A stretch of DNA of 64,000 nt, taken from the NCBI GenBank assembly GCA_949317995.1, contig OX439043.1, positions 3,030,501-3,094,500 on the forward strand, given 5' to 3'. Below the pieces are notes generated by a model, which was not told the origin of the DNA, did no database searches, and saw nothing but the letters and a program-made list of their open reading frames with translations. Below are positions 17,135-61,761 of the stretch, piece by piece. Source of the DNA: Acholoe squamosa (Eukaryota; Annelida; Polychaeta; Phyllodocida; Polynoidae). Every line of letters starts with the position of its first letter. Positions within the stretch are counted from its first letter, which is position 1. Position numbers and translations under genes: made by a program.

Positions 17135-17476
17135 GAGACAACAACCAAAGAGCCATTTACAGAAGATGCCGTTACATCCCCAGGGCTAGACGCGCCCCCA
17201 CCAGCAGCAGCAGCAGCAGCAGCACCAGCAGCAGCCCCAGACCAGCAGCAGACTGTTCCGTCATCTGACTCGTCACCTGACACCTTTCTGTTGGATCCAA
17301 TCCTACCACCATCATTTCTAACACCCAAGCCAACACCTGTGAGTAGAAACAAAACTTTTTCATCAACAATTGATGACAATAATACCGGTACACAGACCAG
17401 CACCCCACTCACATCACAGGCACCAGGACTTAATCTGACTTTACCTGGTTTTCAAGTGCTGAATCCCCAGTCCTAA
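17123..17476 (+). CDS. Gag N-terminal leader ORF
   Basis: This 117-residue ORF starts right after the primer-binding region. It is Pro/Thr/Ser-rich, with an alanine run encoded by a CAG/GCA microsatellite (about 17200-17250) and a QQQ stretch. Its composition continues smoothly into the gag ORF, which opens in the neighbouring frame at 17434. The two overlap by about 40 bases, so they were probably one reading frame separated by a single indel, or joined by frameshifting. No canonical slippery heptamer is visible. Confidence 0.6.
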   Translation: MNQSETTTKEPFTEDAVTSPGLDAPPPAAAAAAAPAAAPDQQQTVPSSDSSPDTFLLDPILPPSFLTPKPTPVSRNKTFSSTIDDNNTGTQTSTPLTSQAPGLNLTLPGFQVLNPQS

Positions 17477-20232: not shown

Positions 20233-20282
20233 GTTTCAGGGGAAGGATGCAAAGCACCAAACCACCCCGCCCCCACCACAGT
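20230..20282 (+). promoter_or_regulatory. gag-pol UAG junction (candidate readthrough site)
   Basis: GAAGAATAGGTTTCAGGGGA: the single UAG at 20230-20232 separates gag and pol, which share one frame with no other stop. A GGGGAAGG tract then faces CCACCCCGCCCCC about 25 bases downstream and could form a stem. Stop suppression at UAG-G is the known gag-pol strategy of gammaretroviruses. Confidence 0.55.
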
Positions 20283-24759: not shown

Positions 24760-26157
24760 AATTTCGTTGAAATCACATATAGAGAAAGCACAAATACCCC
24801 CCCCCCCCACACACAGAAACACCTCTCAACCCCGACCCCCCCCCCCCCATACACACACACATACCAACACTCACCACGGCTGTTGGCCCACACTCAGGCC
24901 ACGTGCCACACCCCTGCTATCTACAGGGACACCCGCACTCACACACACCTAGGCCCAATTACCCATCCTACACATGTGACCACCGACCTCAAAGCCCCGA
25001 CCTGATGATAACAAATTCCCTCAGCGGCACCCCATATCATCAGGTACCCCCTTTTTCTCTTCTTTGAAGATTTACTAACACTCACCTCTTAACTTATCAC
25101 CTCGCACGCCTTCTGTTTTTATATTTATCCTTTTATTATATATATCTCGTTTTTCTTAAACCAATTTTATTTTTCCTTTAAATTATTTATCAAAGGCCCA
25201 ATGAGCCCAATTACACACTGTTTGACCCCAGGATCAAACCCCTCAACCAGCCGCACTGTCAACCACTCAAGGGCAGCATATGCACACAATTTTGTCCAGC
25301 TATGGTTAGGTAGCCACATAAATTGCCCACGGCAGCAGTGTATCCTCTGGTACATGTTTTTCATTTAAAGAAAAATCATGCATACACCGGCTAGATAGCT
25401 TTTCAGGGCTCCTATTTACCAGTTGACACGCCTATTGTAGGTGCTCGTATTCCCCCATGCCCACCCATGTTTGTACCTCTGTTTAGCACGAGGGCACTGA
25501 TACAGGTAGAACCCCATATTTATGAGCTGTCAATTAAGAGCAGCTCGGTACCCCAGGCATGATGTTTCTCACACACATGTATTGATGGTCAGCAAATTTT
25601 TAGACATGTGAACTGACCTCTCCACTCCCGCCTTATCTCAAACCTGACCCCAGGAATTCCAATTATAAGCTTATTACCGGGGTATAGGTCCCAAATTTGC
25701 ATAAGGGACATATGCCCAAACTGCAGCCATCCAATAGAATCAGGCCCAGCCTTTTTAGGGCAAGACATACCACTATAGGGATATCCAAAAGTGAGAAATA
25801 GCCACCCTCACGGATGGGTTTATAAGCCTTAGCCCACCCCCACCTTAGCCACTCCACAATATCACCCAGATCACACCATATCAGCGTTCCAAGTGAACAA
25901 GTGCCTGGACCAGGGATCACCATGGCGTTTACGACGTGCAATAAGCCCAGGTAGGCCTGTCCTATGTGCCCATTAACCAGTACTAGTTTTATCAGTCGTT
26001 CTTATATGGTCAATGACATAACCTGATGTCATGCTACCCAGGTACCTCTATTAACCAATGGCAGTGTGAGTACTAGAATACCTGTAAAAAGTTTGATTGT
26101 TCACTTCGCGCCCCATACCTGACTCAATTGTTTGTGCCCCTATACTCACCCCTCTGT
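24760..26157. other. pol-ORF X spacer of the LTR element
   Basis: It begins with C-rich and CA-rich simple sequence (24799-24870) and becomes AT-rich near 25100-25200. Open frames are short and without recognisable domains. I see no further gene. Confidence 0.6.
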
Positions 26158-26688
26158 ATGGTTTACAGCTTATTCAAAAAAGTAGCTTACTCAAAATTAA
26201 AACTTCTCTTCAGTGAAAATTGGACAATCTACGACCTCCTGGGACCGGTTGGATTATTGAAAGAAGAAAGAGACATTTTTGAGTTTAGGCAGCTCATTGT
26301 ACACCACCAAAATTTGGTCTTCAATATGACTTCTAGACATTTAGCATATTACCTGAATGACCCCGCAGTCCACAAGGAACTGCCGCTATCAAACCCGTTG
26401 GTCTCTACCCTCGTCAAGAGGATGTTACTTTATGTCTGTTGTGACATGCCAACTTCTCCAGATTGGAGCACCTTCAAACCTAAAACAGCCGCTTATATAG
26501 CCTTGCTGTGCGCGCGCACACTTCTGGTCTCTGACCAGCCTTTAAAAGACCTTCCCAGATACTTTAGTGGGACGGGCAGAGCTTTGGTCATCAGGGACGC
26601 CATAGAATTAGTAGTTCAGAAAGCCATTCTTGAGACCCACATGTGGTCCAATAACCTGTCTAAACTCCCACCTACAGCCCATTGCTGA
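26158..26688 (+). CDS. ORF X: unknown accessory protein of the LTR element
   Basis: A 176-residue frame lies between pol and env. It starts either at ATG 26158 or, by splicing, at the acceptor TTTACAG before 26169, which is in the phase supplied by the donor at 17133. The protein is mixed alpha-like, with hydrophobic runs (LVSTLVKRMLLYVCC, AAYIALLCARTLLV) and no signal peptide or catalytic motif I recognise. It stops at TGA 26686. Most Gypsy elements have nothing here. An accessory or regulatory role is only a guess from position. Confidence 0.6.
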   Translation: MVYSLFKKVAYSKLKLLFSENWTIYDLLGPVGLLKEERDIFEFRQLIVHHQNLVFNMTSRHLAYYLNDPAVHKELPLSNPLVSTLVKRMLLYVCCDMPTSPDWSTFKPKTAAYIALLCARTLLVSDQPLKDLPRYFSGTGRALVIRDAIELVVQKAILETHMWSNNLSKLPPTAHC

Positions 26689-26981
26689 AATAAATCTGAC
26701 AGGGTAAGCTACAAAATTTTTACTCTCACAACCCCCCCATTTAGTCTTAGCCTACTAATACCCAAGGTCCAGTCACATCTCCCTCATACCCCCCTCAAAA
26801 CCTCGCCAAGCAACCACCCCCCACTGTTTAAACAAACCACACTACACCCACCTAGGTGTGCCTACAGTCCCCTTTCACAGGAGGACACCTCCCACACAAT
26901 CGACCATAAAATCCCCCACCACATAACCCAATTGCTGATATGACTCACAAACTCAATCCCCCCATCACATCTCTTTTACAG
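26689..26981 (+). promoter_or_regulatory. ORF X-env spacer ending in the env splice acceptor
   Basis: The spacer is C-rich and noncoding, with many CCCCCA runs. It ends CATCTCTTTTACAG (AG at 26980-26981), a good polypyrimidine acceptor directly before the hydrophobic leader of env. Confidence 0.55.
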
Positions 26982-29517
26982 AGCCGCAGTACCTCTAATA
27001 GTGCTGTGTATCCTCTTCAACCTCACCAATGGATCACAGGACAAGGAGTTACCACAAAGGATCGTATTCAGACCAAATTATGGAGCACTGTTTACCCAGT
27101 TACCACAGCCCCTAATCTCAAACTTCATGGACTACCCCCTAGTTTTCAGTTTGAACATCTCCCTGTCCCCCAACCTCCAAAGACCTGATAGAGTGTCACC
27201 CCTACTTAAGCCCGGCACCCCACCATACATTACCCAAACAGCCAACAATCTGGACACATTGATTAGCACCCTATTTGACAAAACCCAAAATTCTTTAGAC
27301 CTTTTGATTAATTTAATTTCCAACCCCAGGAACCGTCAGGCCAGAAATGCCCCAGGACAAATCATTGGCGATATTCTCAGAGCAACCCTAGGCCTGGGAA
27401 CCCAACCTGAAATTGACCTTCTAAACGCTGACATTTCTGACATTGACAGAAGATTGGCCACTAAAATGCATGTGGTTGAATTAGCCACCCATTTTCTATT
27501 AAATATCTCAGAATACAATTACAATTCCCTAAACATCCTATCTGAATTCCAAAATGATACTGACGACGCACTGTCCCTGCTGGCCCAAAATCTAAAAACA
27601 TTAGATTCCAACTTTTCAAACATTATTTTAAATTTAGAATCCCAAGCCAGACAGGACACCTTTTATTCCATGTTATTTTCTGCAGCAAACTCACAAATTG
27701 AGTCACTAATCGACCTTCAGGAGGATCTAGATATTTTATTAAGTGCCATAAACAGCTTAATGGAGGGCGAGCTCCCTCCCAACTTAATTTCCCATGACAC
27801 CCTCAGGTCAGGCCTAAACAACCTCTCCAGCGCCTTGAGTAGCGCCCACCAAGGCATATCAATCCTTGACATACCTATAGGTCATTACTATAAAAGGCGA
27901 GTAAGTGCCCAGTGGAGTGACCCCTCCACCCTCTTCATCTCACTACCCATACCCATAGGACTAGGGGATAATGTTTACACCCTATTCAGAACTGAAACCT
28001 TTCCAGTCCCCTTTGACACATCAGATGTTAACTCTACAGGTTACACCCTGGTACAGCCCCTACCCCCCTACATAGCCATGTCTCCCAGCCACGCCCATTT
28101 CATGGAGCTTCAGCAGGCAGACTTAGACCTATGTACACAAGACACCTTCATCAGCTGTAACCTACCCCTCCCCCTGCTATCACCTCTACACCCCACCTGC
28201 ACTCTGTCCCTACTCCTGGACCTACCTGATGCAGTGCACCACACCTGCAGTTTCACTGCACACATGGCTGCACCCACACCCAACCTAATCAAACCCATTT
28301 CTAGGTCAACATATCTCATGATTACTGGCAAGTCGCCATCTTACTTACAGTGTCACAATGCAGGACAAATACCCATGATCAATGCAGCCTATTCAGTCAT
28401 GTCAGTAGCATGCCTATGCTCTATTAAGAATGCAGGCATGGTTATGATCAATTCAAATATGACCTGCGTACAAAATATAACACTGGAACCCATGGCCATG
28501 AGCCCCATAAACTTACCACTATGGCGACACTTTGGTTCACCTCCAGCTAACATATCAGGCGTTACCATGACAACCGTGCCACGGTCCCTGGAACTACCTA
28601 ACTTCCAGCGTCTCAAATCCTTACACAACCAAAAAATAGTACCCTTAATTAAAAGCGTACTCACCCTCAAACGAGCAGCCAAAGGTCTGTCAGATGAGTC
28701 TTCTCTCCTGTCAGCAAGTTCACTAACACACCTTGGTTACCATTTGGAATATTCGATCTGGTTCCACTTAGTGACCCCTCTGATTGCCATCCTCTGTTGT
28801 GCAATGACATGCCAGATCCAGATGCGCGTGTCACGCCTGGCTCAGTTGGTGACAGTCCATCTAGCACTCAACACACCCAGAATGGCGGATGCAGCGACTT
28901 GGCAGAATCTTAAGGATCTGATCAACAAGGCCAACAACAACTGGCCCTCGACACCCACACAACAGCCCGTGGAGCAAAGCCTGGAATTTATCCAGACTCC
29001 TGGACGCTACGATGTGATGTGGGCAATCGGCTCCGTCCTGATCATCTTGTACCTGGCCCGCCTCTTCATCTCCAGATGCTGCAGACACTGGCCACACTGT
29101 AGGCAAGACGAATCCGATGGCTTGCCCCAGTTTGTCCTCCGCATCCACTCCCAGGGCAGAACATACGAGTTTGTTGTGGGAACCATGATTTTCAGCTCCA
29201 ACCTATGGCCACCCTTCATTAAGGCCCCTAAAATTGGAAAGCCCCGCCTCACTATGCCCTTTGGCCGTCACCTGGATCTCAACTGGAAGGCCAAGGTCAG
29301 CTTCATAATTGGCGCCCAATTGAGAGTGGTGCAGCTCGAGAGATACCCTCGCTGCCCTCTTTTCTGGAGACTACCCCTCTACAGAATCCTAAATGGGAGG
29401 CCACATGTTATGACCCTGGTCATCAAATCCAAAACCCAGCCAGATTTCCAGCTGACCCCAGGATATGAGACGATCGAAGACACCAACATCCCAGAGATCC
29501 CCAGGATCCAGGCCTAG
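26982..29517 (+). CDS. env: Env-like glycoprotein (F-type)
   Basis: About 844 residues. There is no in-frame ATG at the start; the frame enters at the acceptor at 26981 and at once encodes a hydrophobic leader (AAVPLIVLCILF). Numbered from 27001, RNRQAR at 110-115 looks like a furin-type cleavage site. It is followed by a Gly/Ile/Leu-rich stretch like the fusion peptide of baculovirus F and errantivirus Env. Several N-x-S/T sites and a Cys-rich middle part (about 370-500) follow. A hydrophobic block near 28755-28815 and a membrane span near 29015-29080 (WAIGSVLIILYLARLFI) precede a long cytoplasmic tail of about 150 residues. The Env role in envelope fusion is inferred from family resemblance. 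Confidence 0.75.
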
Positions 29518-35882: not shown

Positions 35883-38133
35883 TTAGGAAGAAGACACCTG
35901 GTAGTTTATCGTGAGATTGATGTTACCAGTGATGTTTGCATTAGCAAACATCCCCTGGACACTTGATGCAAGTCGGTGGATATTTTGTTCGTGCATCACG
36001 CTGGAGACCGGGTCACCTACTTCGACTCGCCGGCCTTCCCCTGCAGGGCCTCCCGTCAACTCCACTTCCATGGTGGGCGATGTGTCAATGGACTGTACTG
36101 CTGGACTATTATCAATAGACTCTAATGGAGGTCGACCGAGGGCTGCTGAGGGCCTGGTTTAACGTGTAGTGCCTTTATCCCCTCGGTCCCTCCCCTCGCT
36201 GCAGCTCACACTGGAGTTTTCTTTGTCGTCGTCACACCACTGGATGGATTTACATTTCGCTGAGCACACTTGGGAGTCAGGTAGGGTTCTTTTACTTGGC
36301 TTGCTATTGCCCGAAATGATGTTTGAAAGCACCCTCTGCTGTTGTCTATTGGGTATGTTATAGGCCCCAATGGAAGCCTCATTCTTGTGTCCGGCATGTT
36401 GTGCCACATAGGTTGTGGGCACTCCAGCAGCCATGAGGGTGGTGATACTGGTTTTCCTCAGGGAGTGATTTGTTTTCTTGCCCTTGACACCTCCTTTCTT
36501 ACATACTGTCTTAACGATACCCTGGAGGGTATTCACCCCCATATTGCCCAGAATATATCCAACTTCATCATCAATTGTAGCCGTTGGGTGAGGGGTCAAA
36601 AACATTGGGGCCTCATCGTCCAACATGGCCTGGGGGCGGCGAGACCTGTATTCCTTATAGTACCAGACAGGGCACCTGTCCTCCAGGGTAGCCCAGATAA
36701 GTGGAGGGAAGGCACGGGGCTCAGTGTTACCCCCCCTTGTCTTGGTTATCTTCTCAGTACACTCTAGATATTCCACCCCATCACTGTCAATGTTCAGTTC
36801 TACGTCCCCCCATGCCATCTGTTTGGCCTCATGGCTGGCACGCTCGCCAAAACCCATGTTAAAAAGAAAAAGAAAATAGTTTCCTGCAGGGTACGGGGAT
36901 CTGTCATGCCTAAACTCCCATTTTCCCATAGGCAGTTGAGTTCAGCTGGTGTTATGGCCTCTGCTCGATTGGGACGATTTCCTTTACCAAGTGCCTTAAG
37001 CTTTATCCTTTTGGCATGCAACACCTCCCTGGACATTTCAAATCGAGCATCCTTAAGTGGGTCAGCCTCATAGTCCTGTTCTTTCAGGTGCCTGTCCAAA
37101 AATAGTGGTAAAAAAAAATTAATATTAACTCAGATTTAACTCACATTTAGGTCAAAATTTTAGTGTACTTTAAAACCAATAATCCCATTCATATTTGCAA
37201 GTCAAAAATATTATTACACATGTAAGGGTTTCCACAGTCTTAGAATTTAATTTTTACATACCTCAAGATGCCCCTGTGAATGGAGGTAAGGGTGTCTGGT
37301 TCATGCTCCTCTCCATTCACCTTTTTCTTTGCTATTATGTAGTTACAGAGAAACTGGTCAAGTTCCCTGGGTGGAATATCATGGCATGGGCGATTCTCTT
37401 GGCAAAACTTGTCCAGCCACTTCTGGAAGGCATTCACAACCTGAAATTAATGTATAAAAGAATATTATTTTAGGCTGTAGTCTAAATCGCTGTTTAACGG
37501 GAGGATTTGGACGGGATCTTGCAGTGGGACGGGTATGATGCACACACTTAAACTAGGTCACTACAGCGCCTAACGACGGTAACTAAGGAATATTCACACT
37601 CGAGCGTCTTTGTTTACATTTTAGCGCACGGTGTTTGGGGGTCATTTTAATCCTTTAGCAGTCAAATTTTGCAAATTTAACATGAAATAATGAAAATTTA
37701 GACATACCTGGGTGGTTTTACGCACAGTGTTTTTGTTTTTAGCGCTGGCAATGTATCCCTTTAATTCATCTCTCTCCAGTATGACGGGATTCACTGGGCC
37801 GGTATTCACAGGGACGGGAGCTTCCAGTTGGACGGGTACTGCAACTTGTAGGTCCCGAGGGTCTTTACTGTACAGGGTGGGATCTTCCAGAGCTTCTTTT
37901 TGTGATGTAGAGGCTAGCAAATAGTCTAAATCGCTGTTTAACGGGAGGATTTGGACGGGATCTTGCAGTGGGACGGGTTCTTGTTGGACGGGAAACTCCT
38001 CCAACTGCACCTCAAACAGCCCTATGCTGTCAATATCGTACATTCCACGATCCACCTCATCGTTAATCACATCCATGTTACAGATCTCTTCATAGGAACA
38101 ATTAATATCTGCTTCAAACTCCCCCTCTGGCAA
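35883..38133 (-). pseudogene. Crypton tyrosine recombinase (DUF3504-like), frameshifted
   Basis: Minus-strand exons are 38133-37708 (start MPEGEFEADIN, acidic), 37440-37262 and 37091-35883. Exon borders are GT-AG and agree in phase. Exon 2 (NAFQKWLDKFCQENR, LDQFLCNYIIAKKK) is the helical N-terminal core-binding part. Exon 3 carries the catalytic half, with NHSLRKTSITTLMAAGVPTT and YVAQHAGHKNEASIGAYN giving the H-x-x-R, H-x-x-H and Tyr signature. One frame change in a T-rich run near 36865-36885 separates LQETIFF from NMGFGERAS. A TAA at 36159-36161 precedes 92 further in-frame codons ending GNINLTINYQ. Two lesions make it nonfunctional as read. Confidence 0.8.
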
Positions 38134-38353
38134 GCCAGAAAATTATATATGTTTACTTAGCTTAGATATGTACTACGATGACGTAGCACGAAGACGTAGC
38201 ACGATGACGTAGCAAAAAAACGATGGGACTACTTTCACGTGATCACGTGCCATGTAATACGAACGTATTGTATCACACCCCCCCATTGAATACGGCCGCT
38301 GTAGTACTTTAGCATAGTGTCGATGGTATTAACCATGTAATAAAGGGACATTC

Positions 38354-38935
38354 CCCATGAAATGGGTAGAAGGCATTATTAGTCCTCTACACAAGAAAGG
38401 TGACACAGGCAATCCTGATAACTATAGGCAAATTACTGTTATGAACAGCACCTGTAAATTGTTTGAAATCGTCATCAATAATAGACTTAAGTTCAATAAT
38501 GCTATGCTAAACCAGAATGATCCACTACAAAATGGATTTGTTGAAGACAGGCGGACATCTGATAATGTATTTATACTCTACACAGCTGTCAAGACAGTGC
38601 AAGCTGAGTGTAAGCCCTTATATTGTTGCTTTATTGATTTCACTAAAGCTTTCGACTATATAAATAGAAGAGCTCTTTTCTACAAGCTGATGTGTAACAA
38701 GGTCAAAGGGAAGTTATTACAAATCCTTATGAATCTGTATGAGAAATCCCATTTTAAAGTGAGAGTAAACTCTATCTTAAGTGAGGACATAGATAGTGCA
38801 TATGGTGTACTACAGGGAGGAGTTCTGAGCCCAAAGTTGTTCAACACCTTCTTAGCAGATATTAATGAATACCTGGTTGCTGAGAGTGGAGTAAACATAA
38901 ATGGTTCAGCCGTTGCATATCTCTGCATGCGCGCA
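38354..38935 (+). pseudogene. LINE-A ORF2, reverse transcriptase motifs 1, A and B
   Basis: The frame holds ISPLHKKGD, PDNYRQITVMNSTCKLFE, CCFIDFTKAFDYINR (motif A with catalytic Asp) and YGVLQGGVLSPKLF (motif B). It stops being LINE-like after GSAVAYL, just where the YxDD motif should begin, so the copy is truncated. Confidence 0.85.
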
Positions 38936-40334
38936 GAGTAACCGGTCATTAGATTTTGTTTTTTAACAGTAAATTGAGGGGGTGTATTCGATTCAATTCA
39001 ATTGACATAGCCAAACATGCATGGATTATATTCAAAAACCTATTAATTTCAAGTTAAATCGATAGAATCTATTGAATTCTCCGTCGAAAATGTGACTTCC
39101 GGCAAGGAGGGGTCGCGCATGCACACAAAACATCGAAATCCAAAATGGCGGACAGCGAGAGGATCGCCTTACAGTGCTATCAAAACTGCTGGATTATAAC
39201 AAAATGGAGGAGAATTACAGTCTCTCATTCATTTCTATGGTTAATATGGATGCTTATTCAAGACCTGCTGATATTGTGCAATGCCTAACTCGCCAGGAGA
39301 GGAGTTATTCGCCAATGAAACATGTGAGCGATAAAGGGTGTATTCTCCATAGCCTTAAGCATTGAGTCTTTGACACACTGTCACTATAGTACCAGTCACC
39401 AATGGTAGGTCTTGGACACTCCAACTAGCCCTGTCAGAATTTTTTTTATCTTTTCTTCCTATACATTGTACTTCAACTCATATGTGTCAAAACCTGGGCC
39501 ATATGTGATGTATATCACATGTTAAATTTTTTTATTGAAGGGCTGGACTATAATGCAGGTATATATGAGTTACCATCATCTCTTATTCCTATGCTCATGA
39601 AAATTGTACAAAATTCTATCACAATATTGAAAAAGTCATTCCAATATCACTGCTGAAAACCATATATTTGCAGTTACATATTAAATGTTTAAGATTGAAA
39701 TTGAATTCTGGAATCATTTCTTGAATCTATTGCAGTGTAGTTTTGGACTTTTTGTTAAATTAGTTTTTTTTTGCAGCACATATAAATGGAAACAGCTGCA
39801 ACCACACCAAACACTTGGCATTCTACACTGAAAGAATAGCACAGTGACCAGAATAAGATAAACAAAGCAAAACCTGTCAACTTGAGCTTGTCAAACCTGG
39901 CACAGACTCTTTATGTTGACAACTTCTATGCCTAAGTTGATAAGTTAAGGGTGTCTCACTCAAAGGTTCAGGTAGGGCCATCTGCCAGGGCCATATGATT
40001 ACAAAGTCGTCAACATGAAGAGTCTGTGCCAGTCCGGCGAATTAAAATTGACCGGTTTGAAGACCCCATATTGGATTGTCTTTATTTTGTAATGCGATGT
40101 CTGTCCTTATTTCTAGGAAATTGCAAAGCCTGTGGTATATAAGCTACTCCTATGTATAAGCCACACCCGGAATTCAGGCTACTACTATGAACATAAAGTC
40201 GGAAATGAATTATCAACCTTTGAATCCAGTAGGTAATTGATCATAGTCACCCGCGTTAGCTTTGGTTACCAAGTGGCCAGCGCCCTATATGGTCATATAC
40301 AGCATTCGATCTCACTTTCACTAAAACATCACTC
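38936..40334. other. Interval without recognised gene
   Basis: Around 39143 there is AAAATGGCGGACAGCGAGAG, a Kozak-like start with a short open frame that could be a first exon, but no downstream exon is found. The rest is AT-rich. Confidence 0.5.
39895..40036. repeat. Inverted-repeat element, about 140 bp
   Basis: CTGGCACAGACTCTTTATGT and TGAC on the left are nearly complementary to GTCAACATGAAGAGTCTGTG and CCAG on the right. It is MITE-like and noncoding. Confidence 0.55.
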
Positions 40335-47339: not shown

Positions 47340-48630
47340 CTGAAAAAGTTGTGAATCTCAAAATAATGGGAATTGATAAGACCTTCCACACCATTAAGAG
47401 ACAATATTACTGGCCCAACCTATATCGAGAGATATATAACCCTTATACACCTGTATACCCTTCCAGGCGAGAAACTTGACAAAGGTGAGGCCGCCTATTG
47501 AGGAGACTGACACACCGACCTACCCTTTTGCTAAGGTAGGACTGGATCTCTCGGGACCCTACCCACAGACACTCACAGGCAACAAGTGTTAGAATCTAAC
47601 CTTACGATCGTCAATCCTCGATAAATGAGCGCAGGAAAACGCTACTGGTGCCCCCTCTGTGGTGAGGGAAGTAAACTAACTTTGTTGTTTTAACTGGTCA
47701 CAACTTTGAATAAAGACTTTGTACTTCCGGTCTGAGTCAGCGCGGGCCACGAGGAGTCAGAGAACCCAAATTGAAGAAGTGTTTCTTGATTAATCCTTTA
47801 ATTTGAAGAAGTAAATGCCCAAATTATCCTCCACAAAATGGCTTCCACACTAACAACAAGTACATAGTAAGTTTCATAGATTGGTATAGTGGTTGGGTAG
47901 AGGCATTCCCAGTGGCTGACAAAACAGCTGATACCATCGCATACCCCCTACTAGAAGATCTTCCCTAGGTTTGGGTGCATGCTAGAATTAGTGACTGACA
48001 ACGGGACAGAGAATAAAAACAAAGTAGTTAGGGAGGTGTTGCAACAACTGAACATACATCATGTAAAGACCTCCTATTATCACCCACAAGGAAATTTAAA
48101 AGTTGAGGGATGTCATCACACACTGCATGACATCATTGCCAAGATGGAAAATCAGCATAGAATGTTTAGACTAGTGCATCTAAACCTGAAGAGAGCTAAG
48201 AAAAGGCAAGTGCAATATGCAAATAGGAATGCTAAAGAGATCAACTTTGAAGTAGGTGACCCAATCTATTACAAAGTCAATCAGCATAAGAACAAGTTAC
48301 AAGACAAGTAGGCATATCATCGAAATAATAGAGAAGAAAACCCCAGTCACATTTATCATTAGATACCAATTGACAGGGACAACTACCAAGGCTCACGCCG
48401 AGCATTTGAGGAAGGCATCCATGGAATGGGAGATTCCCATTGATGAGAATGGCAGGACCTTGAGGAGGCCTGCATATGCCGTTCCTCCTGAGGAGTCTGA
48501 CTTAGGGGAGGAGTCTGAGTCAGAGGGAGAGAGTATGAGTGAAGATGATGTTTCCCTAGCAAGACTGGCTCAAAGGAAGTGCCGGGAAAGGGAAGCATCA
48601 TTGGATGAGGATAATATTCCTCTGATGTAG
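47340..48630 (+). pseudogene. Decayed Gypsy-type integrase and pol tail
   Basis: Fragments in order: a zinc-finger remnant (FHTIKRQYYWPNLYREI), the core start (KVGLDLSGPYPQTLTGNK), the core centre (YIVSFIDWYSGWVEAFPVAD), LVTDNGTENKNKVVREVLQQ and YYHPQGNLKVEG. The third catalytic residue region reads VEGCHHTLHDI. A C-terminal module follows (FEVGDPIYYKVN, then AHAEHLRKA) with an acidic Ser-rich tail ending at the TAG near 48628. Several stops and frame changes break it, and a solo LTR sits in its core at 47587-47855. This is an older element than the one at 16.5-34.4 kb. Upstream protease and RT are absent. Confidence 0.8.
47587..47855. mobile_element. Solo LTR, 269 bp
   Basis: It starts TGTTAGAATCTAACC and ends CACTAACA, and is flanked by ACAAG on both sides (47582-47586 and 47856-47860). 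AATAAA occurs within. Removing it and one ACAAG copy lets the integrase frame run on without a gap. TG..CA ends with a 5-bp duplication are diagnostic of an LTR. Confidence 0.85.
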
Positions 48631-49041
48631 TTAGCAAGGAGAATGAGAGAGCAAGAGAGAAGGGAAGAGGGTAAGGATGAGAATGAGGACAGAAATGGAT
48701 GTAAATGCCATCCATGAGAGAGTGGCTAAAGGAAAGAGCATGGAAGAATACACCTCACTGTGCAAGGTGATGTTGACGGGGATGTTAAAATTCATGTAAC
48801 CATATATTCTAAGAATAGATATCTGTTTGTATCTTGGTTAGTTAGATATCTGTTTATATTTTGGATTATCCCTGCCCAGAAGCGACAGCAATTTACGATT
48901 GTCTGCTAATGCTCACAATCAAACACTGACACACAATATGTTAATCCACCCTTGGGAATATCGAAATTAGAAGTGGGTTGTTCCGCTACCAATAATTTCT
49001 TAACACTTTTGTCCTACTATCATAAAGAAAGCCAATATTAG

Positions 49042-49671
49042 GTAACTGACCTACACCGTCAATTATTAGTGTTACATAATACCTCCAGAATCAAGATATG
49101 GGACACAATCACAACACAGTTTCCTAAGATCGCTGAGACCAAATTACCTTCTAAATTAAAGTACATGAAAGAAATTCCAATGGGGCATCTCATTAATGAA
49201 ATGAAGAAGATAAAAGAACAAGATGAAAGTGGCATTCTGCCTGTACTTCCATCTTGGTCTCTAGGACCAATACTGATAGGGATGTTGATAGGAACAGTAA
49301 TTTCAGTTTGCATAGTATATAGATATCATAGAAGCTGCATGGCCATTGTGACAGGTAGAGATAAGAAAGACAGGTCACTTGCTCTGTTGGAGAATCATGC
49401 AGTTGCAGCCCGAGCGAGGGGTGCAGACGGGGACCCTGATGACGAGTCTGCCCAGCCGATGTTGGTTTACACCAGCAGCTACAGACTGCAGGTGGGCCCC
49501 ACAGAGGTGTCGCCAAGGACGGGGGGTGTGAGTATTGCCCCTAGGGAGAAGGACCCTGCACCGCCGGTTGAAGTCAGTGGAGAGGACTTTGTACAAAAAA
49601 TGTATCCGATGCTGGACCTGGCATCAGCGCCACCAAGGCAGGAGGTGAAGGGAGACGTCTCTTCTGAATGA
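49042..49671 (+). CDS. Membrane-anchored Env-like C-terminal ORF of the decayed Gypsy element
   Basis: The frame is open from 49042, with no ATG at its start, to TGA at 49669. A polar stretch is followed by a membrane span at about residues 66-85 counted from 49069 (LGPILIGMLIGTVISVCIVY). A basic/polar cytoplasmic tail of about 110 residues ends it. Its position between integrase and LTR suggests the C-terminal part of a retroelement Env. The ectodomain upstream is missing or unreadable. No family match is certain. Confidence 0.5.
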   Translation, partial: VTDLHRQLLVLHNTSRIKIWDTITTQFPKIAETKLPSKLKYMKEIPMGHLINEMKKIKEQDESGILPVLPSWSLGPILIGMLIGTVISVCIVYRYHRSCMAIVTGRDKKDRSLALLENHAVAARARGADGDPDDESAQPMLVYTSSYRLQVGPTEVSPRTGGVSIAPREKDPAPPVEVSGEDFVQKMYPMLDLASAPPRQEVKGDVSSE

Positions 49672-52203: not shown

Positions 52204-53590
52204 TTCTGGGGTTATAAGGTAAGAAACTGATACAAAATGGAGAAATATGTTAGATAAACACATTAATCCATGTTATGAGAGAGCACTTGTGGGTCTATGG
52301 GTCAATATTCCACGACCCGCGAAGAGGCACAGTCAGACCTGCTAAGACCACCAGAGACTGCACCACACCGGCCGAGGCACGACTGCCTGAGGGATGAGAG
52401 CCCTGCTGCCTGATCCTGCCATGCTGACACCAGTCCTGTAGCCTATACTGTGGTAGTCCTGGCCCTCACCTGAACAAGATCTTGGTAGTATTATTTCATT
52501 TAACCAACACAACCAGAAGACTGTAATTTACTATCAAGCCATTAAAGCTGATTATAACAAAAAGAGCATCACTGTGTTATACAACCTGTCAAGGTTTAGC
52601 TTGACATGCCAATTCAGTGACAGTTATAAGCTAACGATATCCCATGCTGAGAAGTCAACCCCTGGGGGGGGAGTACTCAAGTTAGGATCAGGTACCTACT
52701 GCCAAATGTAGCTCAAAACTGGGACCGGTGAAATGACGCACAGGGACCGGTGACCAAGTGCACCTAAAAAGACAGGGACCAGTAAACCCCTCCCTCCAAC
52801 CAGTACCAGCTTAGTAGAGCAGAAAGAATAGAGACAAAGACAGGCCTATAACATACCATTTACCACCTTTATGGGGAAACCTCTAGGATTGAGTGTTTGT
52901 CTCTGTCCTAATTGGTTTGAAAATTGCCACATAAACACTGCAAACAAGGGGGTACACAACAAATCTTCTGAAAAGGGGAAGATCAGTGCATCTATTCCCG
53001 GTGGGTCAAGTACCTTGAAAATAGGGGACCGGTTGATTACTTCTGGAACCCATTACCGGTCCTGTCCCCCAAATTTAGGGGGCCCGTAGTTTGGCAGTCA
53101 GCGGGGACCATCATAGAGTTAGTACCCCCCCCCCCGTTTGAGGGTTGCTTTAACAGAGGATGCAAAGGGGTCGTTAAGTGCACAGTGCACACAGAGTGGG
53201 AGGAAAGATGACATTAAGAACTCTTAAACTGGGCTAGGGGAGACTGGTCATTAAAGACCCAAGATTATCGTATGTGAAACTATGGCACCTGGCTAGAACA
53301 CGTACGCTGGTAGGCTCCGGAAAAAAACCCGCCGTACTATGAGTAATAATTATCTACAACCTATATTTCTTTAGGACACGGTATGTAAACACTACCTGGA
53401 TCCACAGAGATATATAAACTTTACTCCTATACCTGAACTGCAGAGGATTTGATGAAAACTTCTCGAGATGACAGCGGCCTCGCAATAGAAATCCAAGATG
53501 GCGCCGCCCATGGTCTGTTGACATTCCGCACACGGACACCGTGTGCGGAATACATTTATAACCTCATTTATAACCTTATCCAAGCTCTAG
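52204..53590. other. Interval without recognised gene
   Basis: It contains G/C-tract and GGGACCGGTGA-type repeated text around 52720-53110 and a perfect hairpin at 53523-53551. No exon is supported. Confidence 0.5.
53523..53551. repeat. Perfect 13-bp-stem hairpin upstream of LINE-B ORF1
   Basis: ATTCCGCACACGG and CCGTGTGCGGAAT flank a 3-nt loop (ACA). It lies 122 bp before the ORF1 ATG, at or just before the LINE-B 5' UTR. Confidence 0.7.
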
Positions 53591-53672
53591 TCACTGTCCT
53601 TATGAAAAGATCATCTTAACAGTGGAAAATTTGGTATATTAAAGACCAATTAGTAAAATTCGAACTGACTGA

Positions 53673-55154
53673 ATGTCGAGACGTACAAGAAGTACGAAAC
53701 TAAATCCACACTTGCAGCCCGAATCCAACATGGCGCAGGGCACTTCTGGCAAGGCGAAAAATACAAATTTGCAAGTGGAAAATGAAGAAAATCTCGACGA
53801 GGAAGATAAATTCCTACCCAGATTAGACTACAGAGCCTCTACAAAGACACTAGTTGATAAAATAAATGAGCTAGAGGATCGCATCACATCTCAAGAACGT
53901 ATAAATAGAGCTACTGTTCGCATTCTTCAAGGCATGGAAGCTAGACTCTTTGGCCCGAACGGTTTTCCTGACAAACCAACACAGACAATACAAGAACTTG
54001 AAGAAAAATGTACATCAGTGGCAAATTCCCTCTCTACTTACAGCGATAAAATTGTTAAAACTGAAGAAGAAATAGTGAAAATCCAAGAAAGTTCTGACAA
54101 ATTCGCTGAACAATTTGCAAAATTCGACTCTGACAAGAAAAAAAGAACTCTACTGATTGATGGAGTCAAAGAAGACACTCCTGGATCCCTAAGAGACACA
54201 CTTGACCAATTAATAAATGATGTTGGTTTGAGTTTCAATAGTTCAGTAGCAGATGCCATATACAGAAAAGGGAAAAAACAAGTACCAACAGCTCACCAGA
54301 AAAAAATCCCTAACTTCAGGCCGAGACCCAGGCCCATAGTCGTTATTTTCTCAGCATTGCACTACAAGACACAGATCTTTGGGAGTGTAAAAAACCTGAA
54401 AAACAATATGACCTGGAAAGGTGTACACTTAGCAGATGACATTTCCCCTGAGGAAAAGAAAATGCAGAGAAATCTACGCTCAATCCAAGCACTGGCAAAG
54501 TCTAAAGGCATTGACTGCTACGTAAGAGGATCTGCTATTACCATAGCAGGTCACCTATATCAGTACAAAGACATTGACCAACTACCCTTTGAACTCAACA
54601 TGGCAAATGCTAAGACTGTCGAAACACCTGATGGACTAGCATTTCAAGGTGAATTTGCACCCTTCTCAAACCTCTACAAGTGTATAATCAAGTTTGAAGG
54701 CCATGAATATGACTCCATAGAAAGAGCCTATGCTGCTAAGATGTGTTTAATATCTAAGCAGATGAATGTCCTACGACGAGTACTTGCTGCACCAACCCCC
54801 ATAGACGCTATGTATGCTGCCAAAGGATGTACAAAATCAAATGAATGGTATGATATGGACCAAGAGGTAATGGAGAAACTGATCTCAATTAAGTTCGAAC
54901 ATCCCCATCTCAAGGATATCCTAACCAGCAGCCGTGGTAAATACCTATATGAAGCCACCCCACACAAAGTATATGGTACAGGCCTTCACCTAGGTCAAAA
55001 AGAAGAAATAACCATCGACAACATAGCCTCAAGTGGATATGGAAACAAGCTGGGTGAGCTGCTGATGAAATTTAGATACACTATCACAGGAGAAAAACCA
55101 CTACCAACTGCAGAAGAAATCAGACTACAAAAAGCAAGAGACAATGATATTTAA
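53673..55154 (+). CDS. LINE-B ORF1 with C-terminal NADAR (YbiA-like) domain
   Basis: 493 residues from ATG 53673 to TAA. The N-terminus is basic (MSRRTRSTK). Residues about 55-150 look like a coiled coil (LVDKINELEDRI, TEEEIVKIQESSDKFAEQFA). About 155-310 resemble the RRM plus C-terminal domain of L1-type ORF1 (RTLLIDGVKED, RPIVVIFSALHYKTQIF, NLRSIQALAKSKGI). Residues about 324-470 match NADAR: FQGEFAPFSNLYKCIIKFEG, YDSIERAYAAKM (conserved Glu 350), EWYD (Trp 392), VMEKLISIKFEHPHLKDIL, GKYLYEATPHKVYGTGL, GNKLGELLMKFR. NADAR enzymes act on ADP-ribose N-glycosidic substrates. The usual D-x-x-W-G block reads HKVYGTG here, so catalysis is uncertain. ORF1 proteins normally package LINE RNA. Confidence 0.82.
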   Translation: MSRRTRSTKLNPHLQPESNMAQGTSGKAKNTNLQVENEENLDEEDKFLPRLDYRASTKTLVDKINELEDRITSQERINRATVRILQGMEARLFGPNGFPDKPTQTIQELEEKCTSVANSLSTYSDKIVKTEEEIVKIQESSDKFAEQFAKFDSDKKKRTLLIDGVKEDTPGSLRDTLDQLINDVGLSFNSSVADAIYRKGKKQVPTAHQKKIPNFRPRPRPIVVIFSALHYKTQIFGSVKNLKNNMTWKGVHLADDISPEEKKMQRNLRSIQALAKSKGIDCYVRGSAITIAGHLYQYKDIDQLPFELNMANAKTVETPDGLAFQGEFAPFSNLYKCIIKFEGHEYDSIERAYAAKMCLISKQMNVLRRVLAAPTPIDAMYAAKGCTKSNEWYDMDQEVMEKLISIKFEHPHLKDILTSSRGKYLYEATPHKVYGTGLHLGQKEEITIDNIASSGYGNKLGELLMKFRYTITGEKPLPTAEEIRLQKARDNDI

Positions 55155-55490
55155 ATATAAAGACTTAACCTATACAAAACTATTACATATATGAATTTTG
55201 TTTCGAATAGAAAATTATAGTATAAAACTATCAACACAAGGCTGGTTATGTATCCGTTAGTCTGCCAAAATGCGTTTCTAACTTTAACTGAATGATCTAT
55301 TCATCCACGTTATGGGGCGGCACAAAGGCCTATGCCCTCGGGATGAAATTTATGTACACTTACTACCAAGGGTTCGGGAGAGAAAATCCAAGTATAGGAT
55401 TTGATATAAGTTTTACTATGGAATATGCACATGTAGATGTACTCTGCATGAGCATTATGTATGCAATACAACTCAGTTAATCAGTTGTAA
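55155..55490 (+). other. LINE-B inter-ORF spacer
   Basis: 336 bp separate the ORFs, with an unremarkable 62-codon open frame at 55292-55480. ORF2 begins directly after the TAA at 55488-55490. Confidence 0.6.
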
Positions 55491-58322
55491 GGCACCAGGG
55501 GCCTCAGACTACTACATCTTAATGCTAGGAGTATAAATTCGAATTATGCCTCTATCTGTGCAGAATTGTATCCTGCAGATTTGGATATATATTCCTTCTC
55601 TGAAACTTGGTTTAAAAGTGAGGATGACGAAAGTAGTTGCCAACTAGCAGGTTATGTAAGATATAGATTAGACAGGCAAGTACTAAATGAAAAAGGGAAT
55701 ATTAAGACTGGAGGGGGAGTTGCCCTATATATTAAAAACTCGTTGAATCATGATTATCAAAGGTATTCTCATCTAAATATATCTGACAAAAATATTGAAA
55801 TACAAAATATTGTAATATCAAAACCACATATGAAACAAATCATACTATTCAATGTGTACAGACCACCGGATGGAAACCATGCTGCCTTTATCGATTCCCT
55901 AACTGATGTAATTTCTCAGATTGAAAACAGGAACAATACTGAAATCATATGTATGGGTGATATGAACTTCAATATAAGTGAGGATTCTGATATGGTAAAT
56001 AATCTTCTAAATAGACTAAAAGGGTTTGGTCTAAAGCAAGAAATTAAAAATCCCACAAGGAAAAATGCAACCTTGGATCTTATCTTTACAAATATACGTC
56101 CAAATTTTATAACAACTGGAATTACAAATAATTTTATTTCAGACCATCTCCCTGTCTTTCTTATAAGAAAAAAATGGAAAACCAACGAAGAACTTACTTA
56201 TATTGAAGGCAGATCCTATAAGAAATTACCTGATGAATTATTACTAAGTGAATTTGATGCGTATGACTGGACAACATTTGATACAACAGAAAATGTAAAT
56301 ACTGCTTGGAATGAAATGGAAAACGCTATAAGAAATATATTAGACAGATTTTGTCCCCTACACAAGTTTCTCGTTAAAAAGCACAGAGATCCATGGATGA
56401 CTCAACACGTATACGAATCCATAAGAGATAAAAACAAATTACTATGGTCTGCCAGGAAATCTTTAGATGAACAAAAATGGATTCAAGCCTCTACATGTAG
56501 AAATAAAACAAACAAAATAATAAATAAAGCTAGAAAAAATTTCTTTAAAGAACAAATTGAAGAATACAAAAATGACCATAGAAAATTCTGGCGAACTATT
56601 AATAACCTCATACCAGGACACCCTAAATCGAAACAAGTAATTAACCTAGTAGACCATGAAAATGACAATACCCCCGTTCCTCCTGACCAAGTTCCAAATT
56701 TTATAAATAATTATTTTACACAGATTGGTCCTGTACTTGCAAAGGATCTCTACATACCTTGGAAACCTTACGACAACATCTGTCTAAATTCAATTGAGCC
56801 TTTTACCACAAATCCGCAAGAAGTGTCTAAGCTGGTCCACGATATAAATACCATAAAATCCTCAGCAATTGAAAATATATCAACCAAAGTCTTAAAAACT
56901 GTGTTTAAGCATTCACCTGAAAGACTTACAAAAATTTTCAACCTATCATTTAAGACAAACACTGTACCAGACTCATGGAAAATATCCAGAATAACCCCTA
57001 TTCCAAAAACAGGTGATACCAAACTTGTAAACAATTATAGACCAATCTCCCTCCTACCGCTACCATGTAAACTGCTAGAGAAAATTGTACACACTAGAGT
57101 ATATGGATTCTTGGTTAAAGAAAATATCCTGACTCCTAAGCAGGGTGGCTTCCGAGCAGGCTACAGCACAGTGGATATCCTATCAAAATTTACAGATGAT
57201 ATTAAAAGGGAATTAAATGTTGGAAACTCTACTATTTCCGCCTTCATTGATCTCAGGAAGGCTTTTGATACTGTAGACCATTCGGTCCTATTAATTAAAC
57301 TACATCACTATGGAATTCGCTCAGATAATTACCACTGGTTTATAAACTACCTATCCAATAGACAACAACTGGTATTTGCTAATGGGCTGACTTCTGATCT
57401 GGAAAACATAACCTGTGGAGTACCTCAGGGTTCTATACTAGGTCCTTTGTTATTTCTAATATATGTAAATGATGTAATTAAATGTATTAAGACATGTAAT
57501 ATTAGACTTTATGCAGATGATACTGTGATATACTCATCACACAATAGCTTTATTCAAGCTAAGAGTGAACTTCAACGTGATCTTGAAAATTATTATACCT
57601 GGTGTATCCAAAACAAATTGTCGATTAATATTACGAAAACAAAAATCATGCTATTCACCTCAACAAACCAGAAATTAAAAACCCTGGAAGCAAACATATC
57701 CATGAACAATCAATTATTACAAATTGTCCCTAGTAAATATCTCGGTGTGACCCTGGACCCTCTCCTCTCTTATAAATTTCATCTAAAAAATCAGATCAAA
57801 ACTATCGCCTATAAAACATACAAACTGTGTTTACTAAGAAAATATCTAGATGTCAAATTAGCAGTAAAAATCTATAAAACCACGATACTTCCCTACATGG
57901 ACTATGCAGATATTTGTTTCTCAACAACTTATAGTAAATATTTGGATCCGTTACAATATGCCCAAAATAGATGTCTGAAAATATGTCTGAAAGTTCCTCA
58001 TATTACAAATACAAACTTTATACATAATATTACTGGTTGTAATAAATTAATGGACAGAAGATTTGCACATATTGTAAATTATATGTATAGTCGTTCGAGA
58101 TCTATGGATTATAAAGTTGTACAAAGGCTCCAAACAAGACAACATGATGCTCCCTTATGCAAAACTATTACACCTAACTGTTTATCTTATATTAGAAGTG
58201 TGGAGTTTCATGGTGCCATAACTTGGAATGCCCTAACAGGTGGTAGAAGGAACGCTGAAACTGTGGAAATATTTAAAAAAGAAACTAGAATATATCTTAA
58301 ATCCCTTCTACCCTATACCTAA
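55491..58322 (+). CDS. LINE-B ORF2: APE endonuclease and reverse transcriptase
   Basis: The frame opens after TAA 55488-55490 and ends TAA 58320-58322, about 943 residues. The canonical endonuclease start LLHLNARSINSN is encoded near 55515, yet no in-frame ATG precedes it, so initiation must be non-AUG, by reinitiation, or the ATG was lost. Endonuclease blocks: FSETWF (catalytic Glu), GGGVALYIK, NVYRPPDG, ICMGDMNFN, TLDLIFTN, ISDHLPVF. RT blocks: KISRITPIPKTGD, NYRPISLLPLPCKLLEKIV, GGFRAGYST, AFIDLRKAFDTVDH, CGVPQGSILGPLLFLIYVND, LYADDTVIYSS and YLGVTLD. The thumb and a C-terminal segment rich in Cys/His/Arg follow. All catalytic residues are present. Confidence 0.93.
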   Translation, partial: GTRGLRLLHLNARSINSNYASICAELYPADLDIYSFSETWFKSEDDESSCQLAGYVRYRLDRQVLNEKGNIKTGGGVALYIKNSLNHDYQRYSHLNISDKNIEIQNIVISKPHMKQIILFNVYRPPDGNHAAFIDSLTDVISQIENRNNTEIICMGDMNFNISEDSDMVNNLLNRLKGFGLKQEIKNPTRKNATLDLIFTNIRPNFITTGITNNFISDHLPVFLIRKKWKTNEELTYIEGRSYKKLPDELLLSEFDAYDWTTFDTTENVNTAWNEMENAIRNILDRFCPLHKFLVKKHRDPWMTQHVYESIRDKNKLLWSARKSLDEQKWIQASTCRNKTNKIINKARKNFFKEQIEEYKNDHRKFWRTINNLIPGHPKSKQVINLVDHENDNTPVPPDQVPNFINNYFTQIGPVLAKDLYIPWKPYDNICLNSIEPFTTNPQEVSKLVHDINTIKSSAIENISTKVLKTVFKHSPERLTKIFNLSFKTNTVPDSWKISRITPIPKTGDTKLVNNYRPISLLPLPCKLLEKIVHTRVYGFLVKENILTPKQGGFRAGYSTVDILSKFTDDIKRELNVGNSTISAFIDLRKAFDTVDHSVLLIKLHHYGIRSDNYHWFINYLSNRQQLVFANGLTSDLENITCGVPQGSILGPLLFLIYVNDVIKCIKTCNIRLYADDTVIYSSHNSFIQAKSELQRDLENYYTWCIQNKLSINITKTKIMLFTSTNQKLKTLEANISMNNQLLQIVPSKYLGVTLDPLLSYKFHLKNQIKTIAYKTYKLCLLRKYLDVKLAVKIYKTTILPYMDYADICFSTTYSKYLDPLQYAQNRCLKICLKVPHITNTNFIHNITGCNKLMDRRFAHIVNYMYSRSRSMDYKVVQRLQTRQHDAPLCKTITPNCLSYIRSVEFHGAITWNALTGGRRNAETVEIFKKETRIYLKSLLPYT

Positions 58323-58751
58323 ATTATAACTGATTATTGTACAACCTACTTATTTTCTACAGACTCTCTCCCTCACCCTTCAAATCTCTAATTATTTGTC
58401 ATAATAAGTGTCTAGTTTCTTACTTTAGTAAAATGATTAAATAGCTAGGACCAGAAGGATCAACCCATAACACTAAACTAGTGGGGATGAGGTCCATAGC
58501 TGTCTTTTTGCCACATGAAATTACCAGTCACAATATGTACCATGTCAAATTTCCTGCTGTCTCAATCATTATTTATCTTGATATGAACTTAAACAGAAGA
58601 CTTGTGAAGCTTCTGCTTATCATATCTTATTATATCATTAATTTACTACAGCATATATACTCGAAATTATGGCATTTATATAAAGAAGCAACTACTTTTG
58701 TACCGGTAACATACTTTATTGGCAATAAAGATCTTTAAAACAAAAAAAAAA
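58323..58751 (+). other. LINE-B 3' UTR and A-tail
   Basis: About 400 bp noncoding, with AATAAA at 58724-58729 and a terminal A-run. Confidence 0.75.
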
Positions 58752-58914
58752 GTGTTTTCCTTGGATCTACTTTAACTCACACAAATTTAGCAATGTCTGA
58801 TACTTAACTCACACAAACGTACTAATGCCCACGTACATCTAATACTTGACAAGGTCATCTGGGGCTTATTTTAATATCCCTGACAACAACATAGAGGCTA
58901 TGTTAAGCCTTTAA

Positions 58915-59892: not shown

Positions 59893-60394
59893 AGTACGCA
59901 AAAGTGTTGGACACTAGCAACACTGCATTGGCGCAACAAGGTACCATAATACCTGTGTGTGCCTTATTGGAACCTCCCATTGTATGGGTGCGCCTCAAAG
60001 GCGGGGTCAAATTATATTGAATTTGACTGAAAGTGTAAAAAGAAAATGAAAATAAAAACAGCCACAGGGGGGCGTTACACAAACAGGGCTCGCTACCTTA
60101 CGATTCTCGTAGGGAGGGAAGTGCATTACACAAAATAAATAGTCACTCTGATTTTCCCACCAGAAATTGTCGTTATAGCCTAACGATAAAACCCCCGTTA
60201 CACAAACTTTTTGTCGTAGTGTAACTATCGCTCGTTTCCTAAAGTTAATGTTACAATGATCCATTTTCCCAGATTAAACATTAGGTGCCCAATCATCAGA
60301 ACGACCATCGTTCTGACATTTTTTACCGAACGATGAGGGGGACCCCAGAGTAATTTTCGTTCACTGGGTCACTTCCTGTCTTAGGGAGGGAAAA

Positions 60395-61761
60395 TTGAAG
60401 ATGGCTCCTGCTCAGAAGAGAGATACCTTAGGGCGCAAGCAGCGGAAAATCAGACAACGGAGGTCCCCTTTTGCCATGTATGACGAGAATGAGTTCCAGG
60501 CCCTCTACAGGCTGACAAAACCAGTGGTCAAGAGGTTGCTAGCCGACTACAGCCAACACAGAGCCTTCAAAGGAACCACCAGAGGAGGGGGACTCTCCCA
60601 CTTTGATAGGGTAAGTTATAAAGATATAAAAAATAAAAATTCCCAATAATTACTGTAATAAAAAATAATAAAGTAATGGAAAGATTAATACTTAAATATC
60701 TGTCAATTTTTCTTAAAATTTGTCATTGGCTATGTCCCATACAAAATATAAGTAAATGTATGTTTTTATATATTTTTTTTCAGCTATGCCTGGTCCTCAG
60801 GTATTTCACAACCGGTTCATTCTACAGCACCACAGGGGACACTTAGCAAGTGTCTCGTACCTTGCTGTGTCACTCTGTTAAGGATGTAACTGACTTTTTC
60901 TACAAAGAGAGGAAAAAGTTCATCCAGTGGCCTGAGTCCTTAGAACAGAAAATGGAAAATGCTCTCAAAGTGTACCGCCACATACCCAAGGGCACCAAGG
61001 AGGAACAGAAGAAGAAATACGTGTTTGGTTTTGTGGATGGCACCCACATACCTATTAAGACACCAGATCAGAATGAGGCCCCTTACGTCTGTTGCAAAGG
61101 GTACCATTCAATCAACACGACTGTAAGTATTTCTTTTTCAACTTCTTCATACTTTGGGTTTGTTCTGCTTTTTCAGTTTTTATATCCTTTATATGTAATG
61201 AAATTTGACATGAAATTTAAGATTTGTAATGAAATTTGACATAAAGAATACATCAATAAGGAATAAACTCTTGAACAAAGACATTTATGTTAAAAACAAA
61301 AAAATTTGTTATCTACAGATCATCTCAGACTTTGACAAGAGGATCATATATGTGGATCCGAGGTGGCCGGGATCTGTGAATGACTCATATGCTCTGAGGT
61401 GCTCTCCTGTCGGAGATGAGATCGAGGAGGAAATATGGGGCAAGTTTGTTCTCCTTGGAGATGGCGAGTGAGTACCTTAACTATTTTTTTGTAATTTTCA
61501 ATGTAGTACTTTTTGTCATTTTTTCCATGAGAAATAAGTTTTGTCTCTTCTCTCAATTTCTAGTCTCACACCTGTCTATTATTTCTACTTCATTACCTTA
61601 CATTATCTGTTTTTTGTTTCCAGATACGGCCTGAAGCCCAACCTCTTCACTCCCTACAGGACCACTCAACCAGGAACAAAGGAGGAGAGGTTCAATAAGT
61701 GGCACCGCAAAACGCGAGTCTGTGTGGAGCAGTCGATCGGGATATTAAAGCAGAGGTGGCG
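60395..61761 (+). pseudogene. PIF/Harbinger transposase (HARBI1-like), with in-frame stop
   Basis: Plus-strand exons: 60395-60610, 60784-61122, 61319-61467 and 61624-61761, all GT-AG and phase-consistent. Exon 1 gives a basic N-terminus and NEFQALYRLTKPVVKRLLAD. Exon 2 begins LCLVLRYFTTGSFYSTTGDT and carries VFGFVDGTHIPIKTP (first Asp). Exon 3 gives VDPRWPGSVNDSYAL (second Asp). Exon 4 gives LKPNLFTPYRT and TRVCVEQSIGILKQRWR (Glu). This is the DDE_4 family DDE triad. A TAG at 60844-60846 interrupts exon 2, and the usual last 60-80 residues are not found after 61761, so this copy is probably dead. Confidence 0.85.

Follow-up and report, generated by a model that had tools for sequence, protein, structure and literature searches.

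A LINE-type retrotransposon of Acholoe squamosa with a NADAR domain in its predicted ORF1 protein

Why should the RNA-packaging protein of a retrotransposon end in a NADAR domain? The question is raised by a stretch of 64,000 nucleotides (the window) from contig OX439043.1 of the polychaete Acholoe squamosa. Judged by its sequence, the element at positions 53673–58751 is a long interspersed nuclear element (LINE), i.e., a retrotransposon of the non-LTR (long terminal repeat) type, with a NADAR domain in the product of its first open reading frame (ORF1). The protein almost certainly joins a part built like L1 ORF1p to a C-terminal NADAR domain of the YbiA type, in a fusion kept in related elements. 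Both frames, ORF1 and ORF2, are open in the window copy. One copy of the LINE was read as DNA, and conservation was judged at the protein level only. The features of the element are listed below; residue equivalents refer to the P. nicotianae NADAR (8BAU).

53673–55154, + strand: ORF1 of the LINE, 493 amino acids (aa), in the order coiled coil, RRM, C-terminal domain (CTD), NADAR; from the open frame, Pfam, models and fold searches
53829–54137, + strand: predicted coiled coil, aa 53–155, with helices 53–93 and 106–155 in a full-length model of low confidence
54135–54440, + strand: RRM-like domain, aa 155–256
54441–54602, + strand: CTD-like segment of the L1 ORF1p type, aa 257–310
54654–55085, + strand: NADAR domain, aa 328–471 (model match about aa 308–474)
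54720–54722, + strand: E350, equivalent by alignment of the ribose-contacting E43 of 8BAU
54741–54743, + strand: M357, aligned with K50 of 8BAU (K95 of the E. coli C7 NADAR)
54846–54848, + strand: W392, equivalent by alignment of W89 of 8BAU
54951–54953, + strand: E427, aligned with E125 of 8BAU; a glutamate at this position characterizes the YbiA subfamily
55155–55490, + strand: gap between ORF1 and ORF2, from the sequence
55491–58322, + strand: ORF2 frame of the LINE, 943 aa, endonuclease and reverse transcriptase, from Pfam and the YADD motif
58724–58751, + strand: AATAAA signal and terminal run of ten A, likely the 3′ end of the element, from the sequence

The original prediction had placed a NADAR domain in an uninterrupted frame of a LINE ORF1, and in this it was correct. 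The frame at 53673–55154 on the + strand is open over 493 codons, a reverse transcriptase and an endonuclease are encoded downstream of it, and the modelled protein has the L1-type fold. The proposed profile search gave a clear match: Pfam-A NADAR (PF08719) aligns with residues 328–471 at an E value of 9.4e-13 and 49.2 bits (cut-off 35.1), over profile positions 10–162 of 163. The modelled C-terminal domain has the NADAR fold, and its fold matches include polyproteins of nidoviruses along with NADARs of phages and giant viruses. By sequence, the best match of ORF1 in the PDB was E. coli YbiA (2B3W, E 1.7e-4); at E up to 1 there was one further match, to a coiled coil (0.52). E427 is a glutamate, not an aspartate or histidine, at the position of E125, where glutamate marks the YbiA subfamily (PMC11543638; PMC11125620).

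The full-length model of ORF1 had low overall confidence (predicted local distance difference test, pLDDT, 57.7); for this reason the RRM and CTD were assigned by fold matches alone, and a separate model was made of the NADAR part. In this low-confidence model the protein matches the coiled coil–RRM–CTD fold of L1 ORF1p, that is, the type II or L1-type fold, with 18–19% identity to 2yko_B and 2w7a_A over the aligned part. No match to PF02994 (Transposase_22), the family by which type II ORF1 proteins are named (PMC4120745), was found in ORF1 among Pfam families at E up to 1. That ORF1 is built like human L1 ORF1p (2yko, 2w7a), with coiled coil, RRM and CTD, is strongly supported by the modelled fold. 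We know of no NADAR domain in human L1 ORF1p.

Homologues were collected in two protein searches with the whole of ORF1 (2 matches of 7996 scored and 5 of 7995, the lists being lower bounds as scoring was confined to the candidates with the most words in common) and one with the NADAR domain alone, in which 20 of 500 candidates matched at E up to 0.1. Eighteen homologues are treated as LINE-type (P0001–P0003 and P0006–P0020), and P0004, P0005, P0021 and P0022, the last two from the NADAR-only search, as outside NADARs. The longest contigs on which the homologues lie measure 763 to about 4.4 million bases. Eleven of the 18 span the junction between CTD or linker and NADAR (P0001, P0002, P0003, P0006, P0007, P0009, P0010, P0012, P0013, P0018 and P0020); the other seven, P0017 among them, start inside the NADAR domain and are assigned to LINEs by similarity only. 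In P0006 the NADAR is joined to a segment with 45 of 88 aa (51%) identical to the ORF2 of the element, which ties the domain to a LINE of this kind on a different contig. P0012 has, by eye, coiled-coil-like sequence and the start of an RRM ahead of its NADAR, with an apparent internal deletion. The Pfam cut-off for NADAR was passed by nine of ten relatives scanned, with 107.9 bits for P0013 and 74.9 for P0009; P0003, which is cut short, scored 25.7 bits. P0020 is without a precomputed Pfam domain. In three comparisons with long overlaps the conservation of the NADAR sequence appears similar to that of the CTD, identities being 96/156 and 43/84, respectively, with P0001, 60/155 and 35/86 with P0002, and 59/145 and 32/72 with P0007. 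The fusion is not, then, private to this copy; a private fusion would have told against the original prediction.

What weighs on the other side is that the searches favour NADAR-bearing proteins, and that a NADAR-only query yields such matches by construction, so that related ORF1 proteins without the domain may exist. The LINE-type matches of the whole-ORF1 searches, P0001, P0002 and P0003, are all NADAR-bearing. At the level of protein sequence, it is strongly supported that related elements keep the CTD–NADAR fusion. In a tree built without the short or partial sequences P0011, P0014, P0015, P0016, P0018, P0019 and P0020, one branch parts 12 LINE-type rows (window included) from 6 others, with a support of 72/92 and in 71% of 200 bootstrap trees; P0017 lies on a long branch. 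As this support is weak, a single acquisition of NADAR is compatible with the tree but not demonstrated by it. No related loci were found as DNA in collections of viral and prokaryotic contigs, which says little about animals.

The ORF2 frame matches RVT_1 (E 2.1e-37) and Exo_endo_phos (E 5.2e-7) in Pfam and has a YADD motif at residue 674; a frame for endonuclease and reverse transcriptase downstream of ORF1 is what characterizes a LINE or non-LTR element. Its best PDB match was the reverse transcriptase entry 8c8j (54.1 bits), with R2 proteins near it (49.7 bits), and the clade is decided by neither. A CCHC motif is known from the ORF2 of L1/Tx1 elements. Two CCHC-type patterns found no match in the ORF2 of this LINE, a hint only, by which a clade other than Tx1 is possible. 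A stop codon stands immediately before 55491, the first methionine is residue 114, no ATG occurs in the opening 113 codons, and the endonuclease part begins at the start of the frame despite this. Translation may begin at a non-ATG codon or by reinitiation, or the window copy may carry a lesion. No target-site duplication was found between 58736–58790 and 52901–53700; the longest exact word common to both is 9 bases and does not adjoin the A run. Within the 64-kb window there is no further copy of ORF1 or of the whole element, the sole related stretch being a reverse transcriptase fragment at 38348–38863, 28% identical to the LINE ORF2.

The pairing of NADAR with a LINE ORF1 has been noted before. 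Several Tx1 LINEs of Crassostrea gigas appear to have a YbiA-family NADAR in their ORF1 proteins (PMC12477816, Genome Biol. 2025). The original prediction, which knew of no such fusion established as a LINE feature, has to be corrected to that extent: the fusion is not wholly unreported. These Repbase elements, set beside the window element by description only, are like it in having the domain in ORF1. A conserved YbiA-family NADAR is also present in Pol of one Gypsy lineage of Ectocarpus, another retrotransposon, and a role in processing RNA intermediates was suggested for the domain; the blastp matches of the Ectocarpus lineage outside that genus were almost exclusively bacterial (PMC12477816), which in our reading makes a separate acquisition likely. 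Among open PMC papers naming “NADAR domain”, judged by title and the start of the abstract, PMC12477816 was the only one on transposable elements, and no other report of NADAR in such elements was found among the papers listed from that literature. The term NADAR has 0 occurrences in a study of 448 Jockey-superfamily elements (PMC4120745) and is not mentioned in the available text of a paper on bivalve transposons (PMC10294476); in the available parts of PMC7853720 and PMC7922944 it is mentioned for host genes only. In Caenorhabditis tropicalis, two of the genes that were duplicated in a selfish Medea locus are homologues of C. elegans genes that have NADAR/YbiA-like domains (PMC7853720), possibly another link between NADAR and selfish genetics.

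Other known systems resemble this one in part. ORF1 proteins of CR1/L2 elements with accessory esterase or PHD domains likewise have an added enzyme or reader domain (PMC4120745). Invertebrate nidoviruses and other RNA viruses are, like the LINE, RNA-based selfish elements of invertebrates that possess a NADAR, but theirs lies inside polyproteins with an RNA-dependent RNA polymerase (PMC9503650). The P. nicotianae NADAR (8BAU) and E. coli YbiA (2B3W) share with the window copy the fold and the equivalents of E43, W89 and E125, whereas the window NADAR belongs to an RNA-packaging protein and differs from 8BAU in having M at K50 and D at R93. Beyond the oyster report, the present analysis contributes the L1-type architecture, the finding that the fusion is conserved, its linkage to ORF2 and a survey of the pocket.

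In L1 ORF1p the coiled coil trimerises, and the RRM and CTD bind the RNA of the element in cis. By analogy, the coiled coil of this protein would trimerise ORF1 and its RRM and CTD would coat the element’s own RNA, so that each ribonucleoprotein particle (RNP) would bear many NADAR domains. These would bind ADP-ribose attached to nucleic acid, in N-glycosidic adducts of the guanine type, or related products of host transferases, at least some members of the family would remove it, and its removal would protect the RNA template or the new cDNA. ZAP, a restriction factor of human L1, is PARP13. NADARs, including the eukaryotic enzyme 8BAU, hydrolyse guanine-ADP-ribose in DNA (PMC11543638). Metazoan ADP-ribosyltransferases have been implicated in antiviral defence, and the Macro and NADAR domains of RNA viruses have been suggested as counters (PMC9503650). 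It is from this activity, from the antiviral transferases and from the identity of ZAP with PARP13 that we infer removal or binding of ADP-ribose on the RNP, RNA or cDNA. The mechanism as a whole, in which an RNP-borne NADAR binds or removes host-made ADP-ribose and so protects RNA or cDNA, is put forward tentatively. The original prediction had already raised a role against host PARP-type defence as a possibility.

The ADP-ribose contacts of 8BAU were taken from PMC11543638, and 11 of them were mapped by alignment. Residue counts cover LINE-type sequences, the window copy included, with P0016 outside the alignment; since many homologues are fragments, n is 14 in the E350 and K50 columns and 15 in those of W392 and E427. 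At the E43 position (E350) glutamate is found in 13 of 14, with K in P0008; tryptophan at the W89 position (W392) and glutamate at the E125 position (E427) are found in 15 of 15, the unaligned P0016 having K at the latter. The R79 position is basic in 14/16 (K384 in the window copy). When the 159 columns with at least 12 letters are ranked by entropy, 16 prove invariant, W392 and E427 among them; E350 comes 23rd and M357 112th.

Several points weigh against the proposed mechanism. At the K50 position, where the window copy has M357, the 14 sequences have H in 6, M in 3, R in 3, and K and C in 1 each; the K50/K95-equivalent lysine, largely conserved over the superfamily and expected of a catalytically complete NADAR, is thus missing from the window copy. 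R93 aligns with D396 (K in 3/15), and the column of D130 varies, albeit in a part of the alignment that contains gaps. The window copy is identical to 8BAU at 3 of the 11 mapped contacts, compared to 7 of 11 in YbiA; of the “whole NADAR plan” seen in the original prediction, the fold stands and the ADP-ribose pocket does not. ADP-ribosylation of LINE RNA or cDNA was not found in the literature examined, and many viral NADARs have been argued to act on small ADP-ribose derivatives (PMC9503650). NCBIfam TIGR02464, for the riboflavin N-glycosidase, matches ORF1 at 54.5 bits, under its equivalog cut-off of 73.7; with this score the riboflavin enzyme as such was rejected.

No argument can be drawn from the absence of Y84 and K75, because YbiA is without both as well. 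P0013, which bears CTD-like sequence, is identical at 6 of the 11 mapped contacts, K50 included. K95 is essential in the E. coli C7 NADAR, and its K95R variant, although active in vitro, failed to rescue cells exposed to the toxin (PMC11543638); LINE variants with R at the K50 position may therefore be active. K356, adjoining M357, is K in 10/14 and might, speculatively, stand in for the pocket lysine. The aligned sequences give a picture of LINE NADARs that appear to hold the fold and the core of the catalytic centre while the phosphate clamp changes. A sub-branch of P0009, P0012 and P0018 has the motif EQGLQFEH, a distinct pocket variant with a histidine at the position of the catalytic lysine and a glutamate before it. 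The variants K, R, H, M and C at one position provide a ready series for probing the role of that residue.

In a rival reading, the NADAR fold would now serve without catalysis as a module that binds RNA, an ADP-ribosylated protein or a host partner and aids assembly or localisation of the RNP. The lysine and arginine positions of the clamp vary in the LINE family while the fold is held, and the nematode NADAR protein SNA-3, whose NADARs have an unknown biochemical role and the first of whose three lacks key residues, is needed for trans-splicing (PMC9303266). Yet the equivalents of E43, W89 and E125, which contact ADP-ribose in 8BAU, are nearly invariant, P0013 retains K50 among its contacts, and mutation of the homologues of YbiA catalytic residues impaired SNA-3 function, although its authors did not exclude effects on folding (PMC9303266). 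For the family such a role is possible rather than probable; for the window copy it is nearly as likely as the proposed mechanism. Less expected, and on balance improbable, is a NADAR whose substrates are RNA ends or small derivatives of NAD or ADP-ribose, and which helps to process the element’s RNA instead of erasing host ADP-ribosylation. Processing of RNA was proposed for the Ectocarpus and oyster elements (PMC12477816), soluble ADP-ribose derivatives were proposed as substrates for many viral NADARs (PMC9503650), and YbiA is an N-glycosidase of riboflavin intermediates (PMC11543638). The score below the TIGR02464 cut-off argues otherwise, and the tether to an RNA-binding protein points to a substrate bound to nucleic acid or RNP.

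The replaced pocket lysine, and a NADAR score below those of P0013 and P0009, would also fit a hitch-hiking passenger decaying in this lineage. The identity of the domain, which in the comparisons with P0001, P0002 and P0007 is close to that of the CTD or exceeds it, argues against decay, as do the open frame and the key residues held across diverged elements, and a passenger is very unlikely. That a single copy was read as DNA speaks for a similarity due to chance, an artefact of assembly or an isolated fusion to a host gene. The Pfam match, the junction in relatives, the link of P0006 to ORF2 and the NADAR fold led to rejection of a chance or private fusion, and the probability left to this explanation is negligible. 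The preferred reading, in tentative form, is still binding or removal of host-made ADP-ribose by an RNP-borne NADAR.

Other sequences in the window also resemble mobile elements. ARAGORN, set to the bacterial code, detected no tRNA. A large Gypsy-type element at 17434–29517 has gag-like (932 aa) and pol-like (1508 aa) open frames, named by eye, followed by an env-like frame of 857 aa, for which Pfam gave only a match below threshold, to a viral spike (E 4.8e-4). A 260-aa frame at 36159–36941 on the − strand matches Phage_integrase (tyrosine recombinase, 32.7 bits) and, below threshold, DUF3504, and probably comes from a recombinase-bearing transposon. The reverse transcriptase fragment at 38333–38941 (RVT_1, E 1e-17) belongs to an element other than the NADAR LINE. 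Integrase-like and membrane-anchor-like frames recognized by eye at 47955–49671 are perhaps the remains of another LTR or retroviral-type element; no Pfam family matched the frame of 209 aa at 49042. Two frames at 60317–61239 resemble a Harbinger-type DNA transposon by eye, the second with a weak match to DDE_Tnp_4 (17.9 bits, below cut-off) and the first without a Pfam match.

Why many LINE ORF1 proteins bear extra domains is a long-standing open question. Since relatives of this domain strip ADP-ribose from DNA, the fusion leads to an assayable hypothesis, that invertebrate retrotransposons face and counter ADP-ribosylation of nucleic acids. In its broadest form, which we consider doubtful, an animal LINE lineage would erase host ADP-ribosylation of its RNA or cDNA by means of a hydrolase borne on ORF1, reversible ADP-ribosylation of nucleic acids would be an anti-transposon defence of invertebrates, and LINEs, a Gypsy lineage and RNA viruses of invertebrates would each have acquired a NADAR as a counter to it. 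If true, this would provide a natural setting for the eukaryotic NADARs, whose physiological role is called unclear (PMC11125620).
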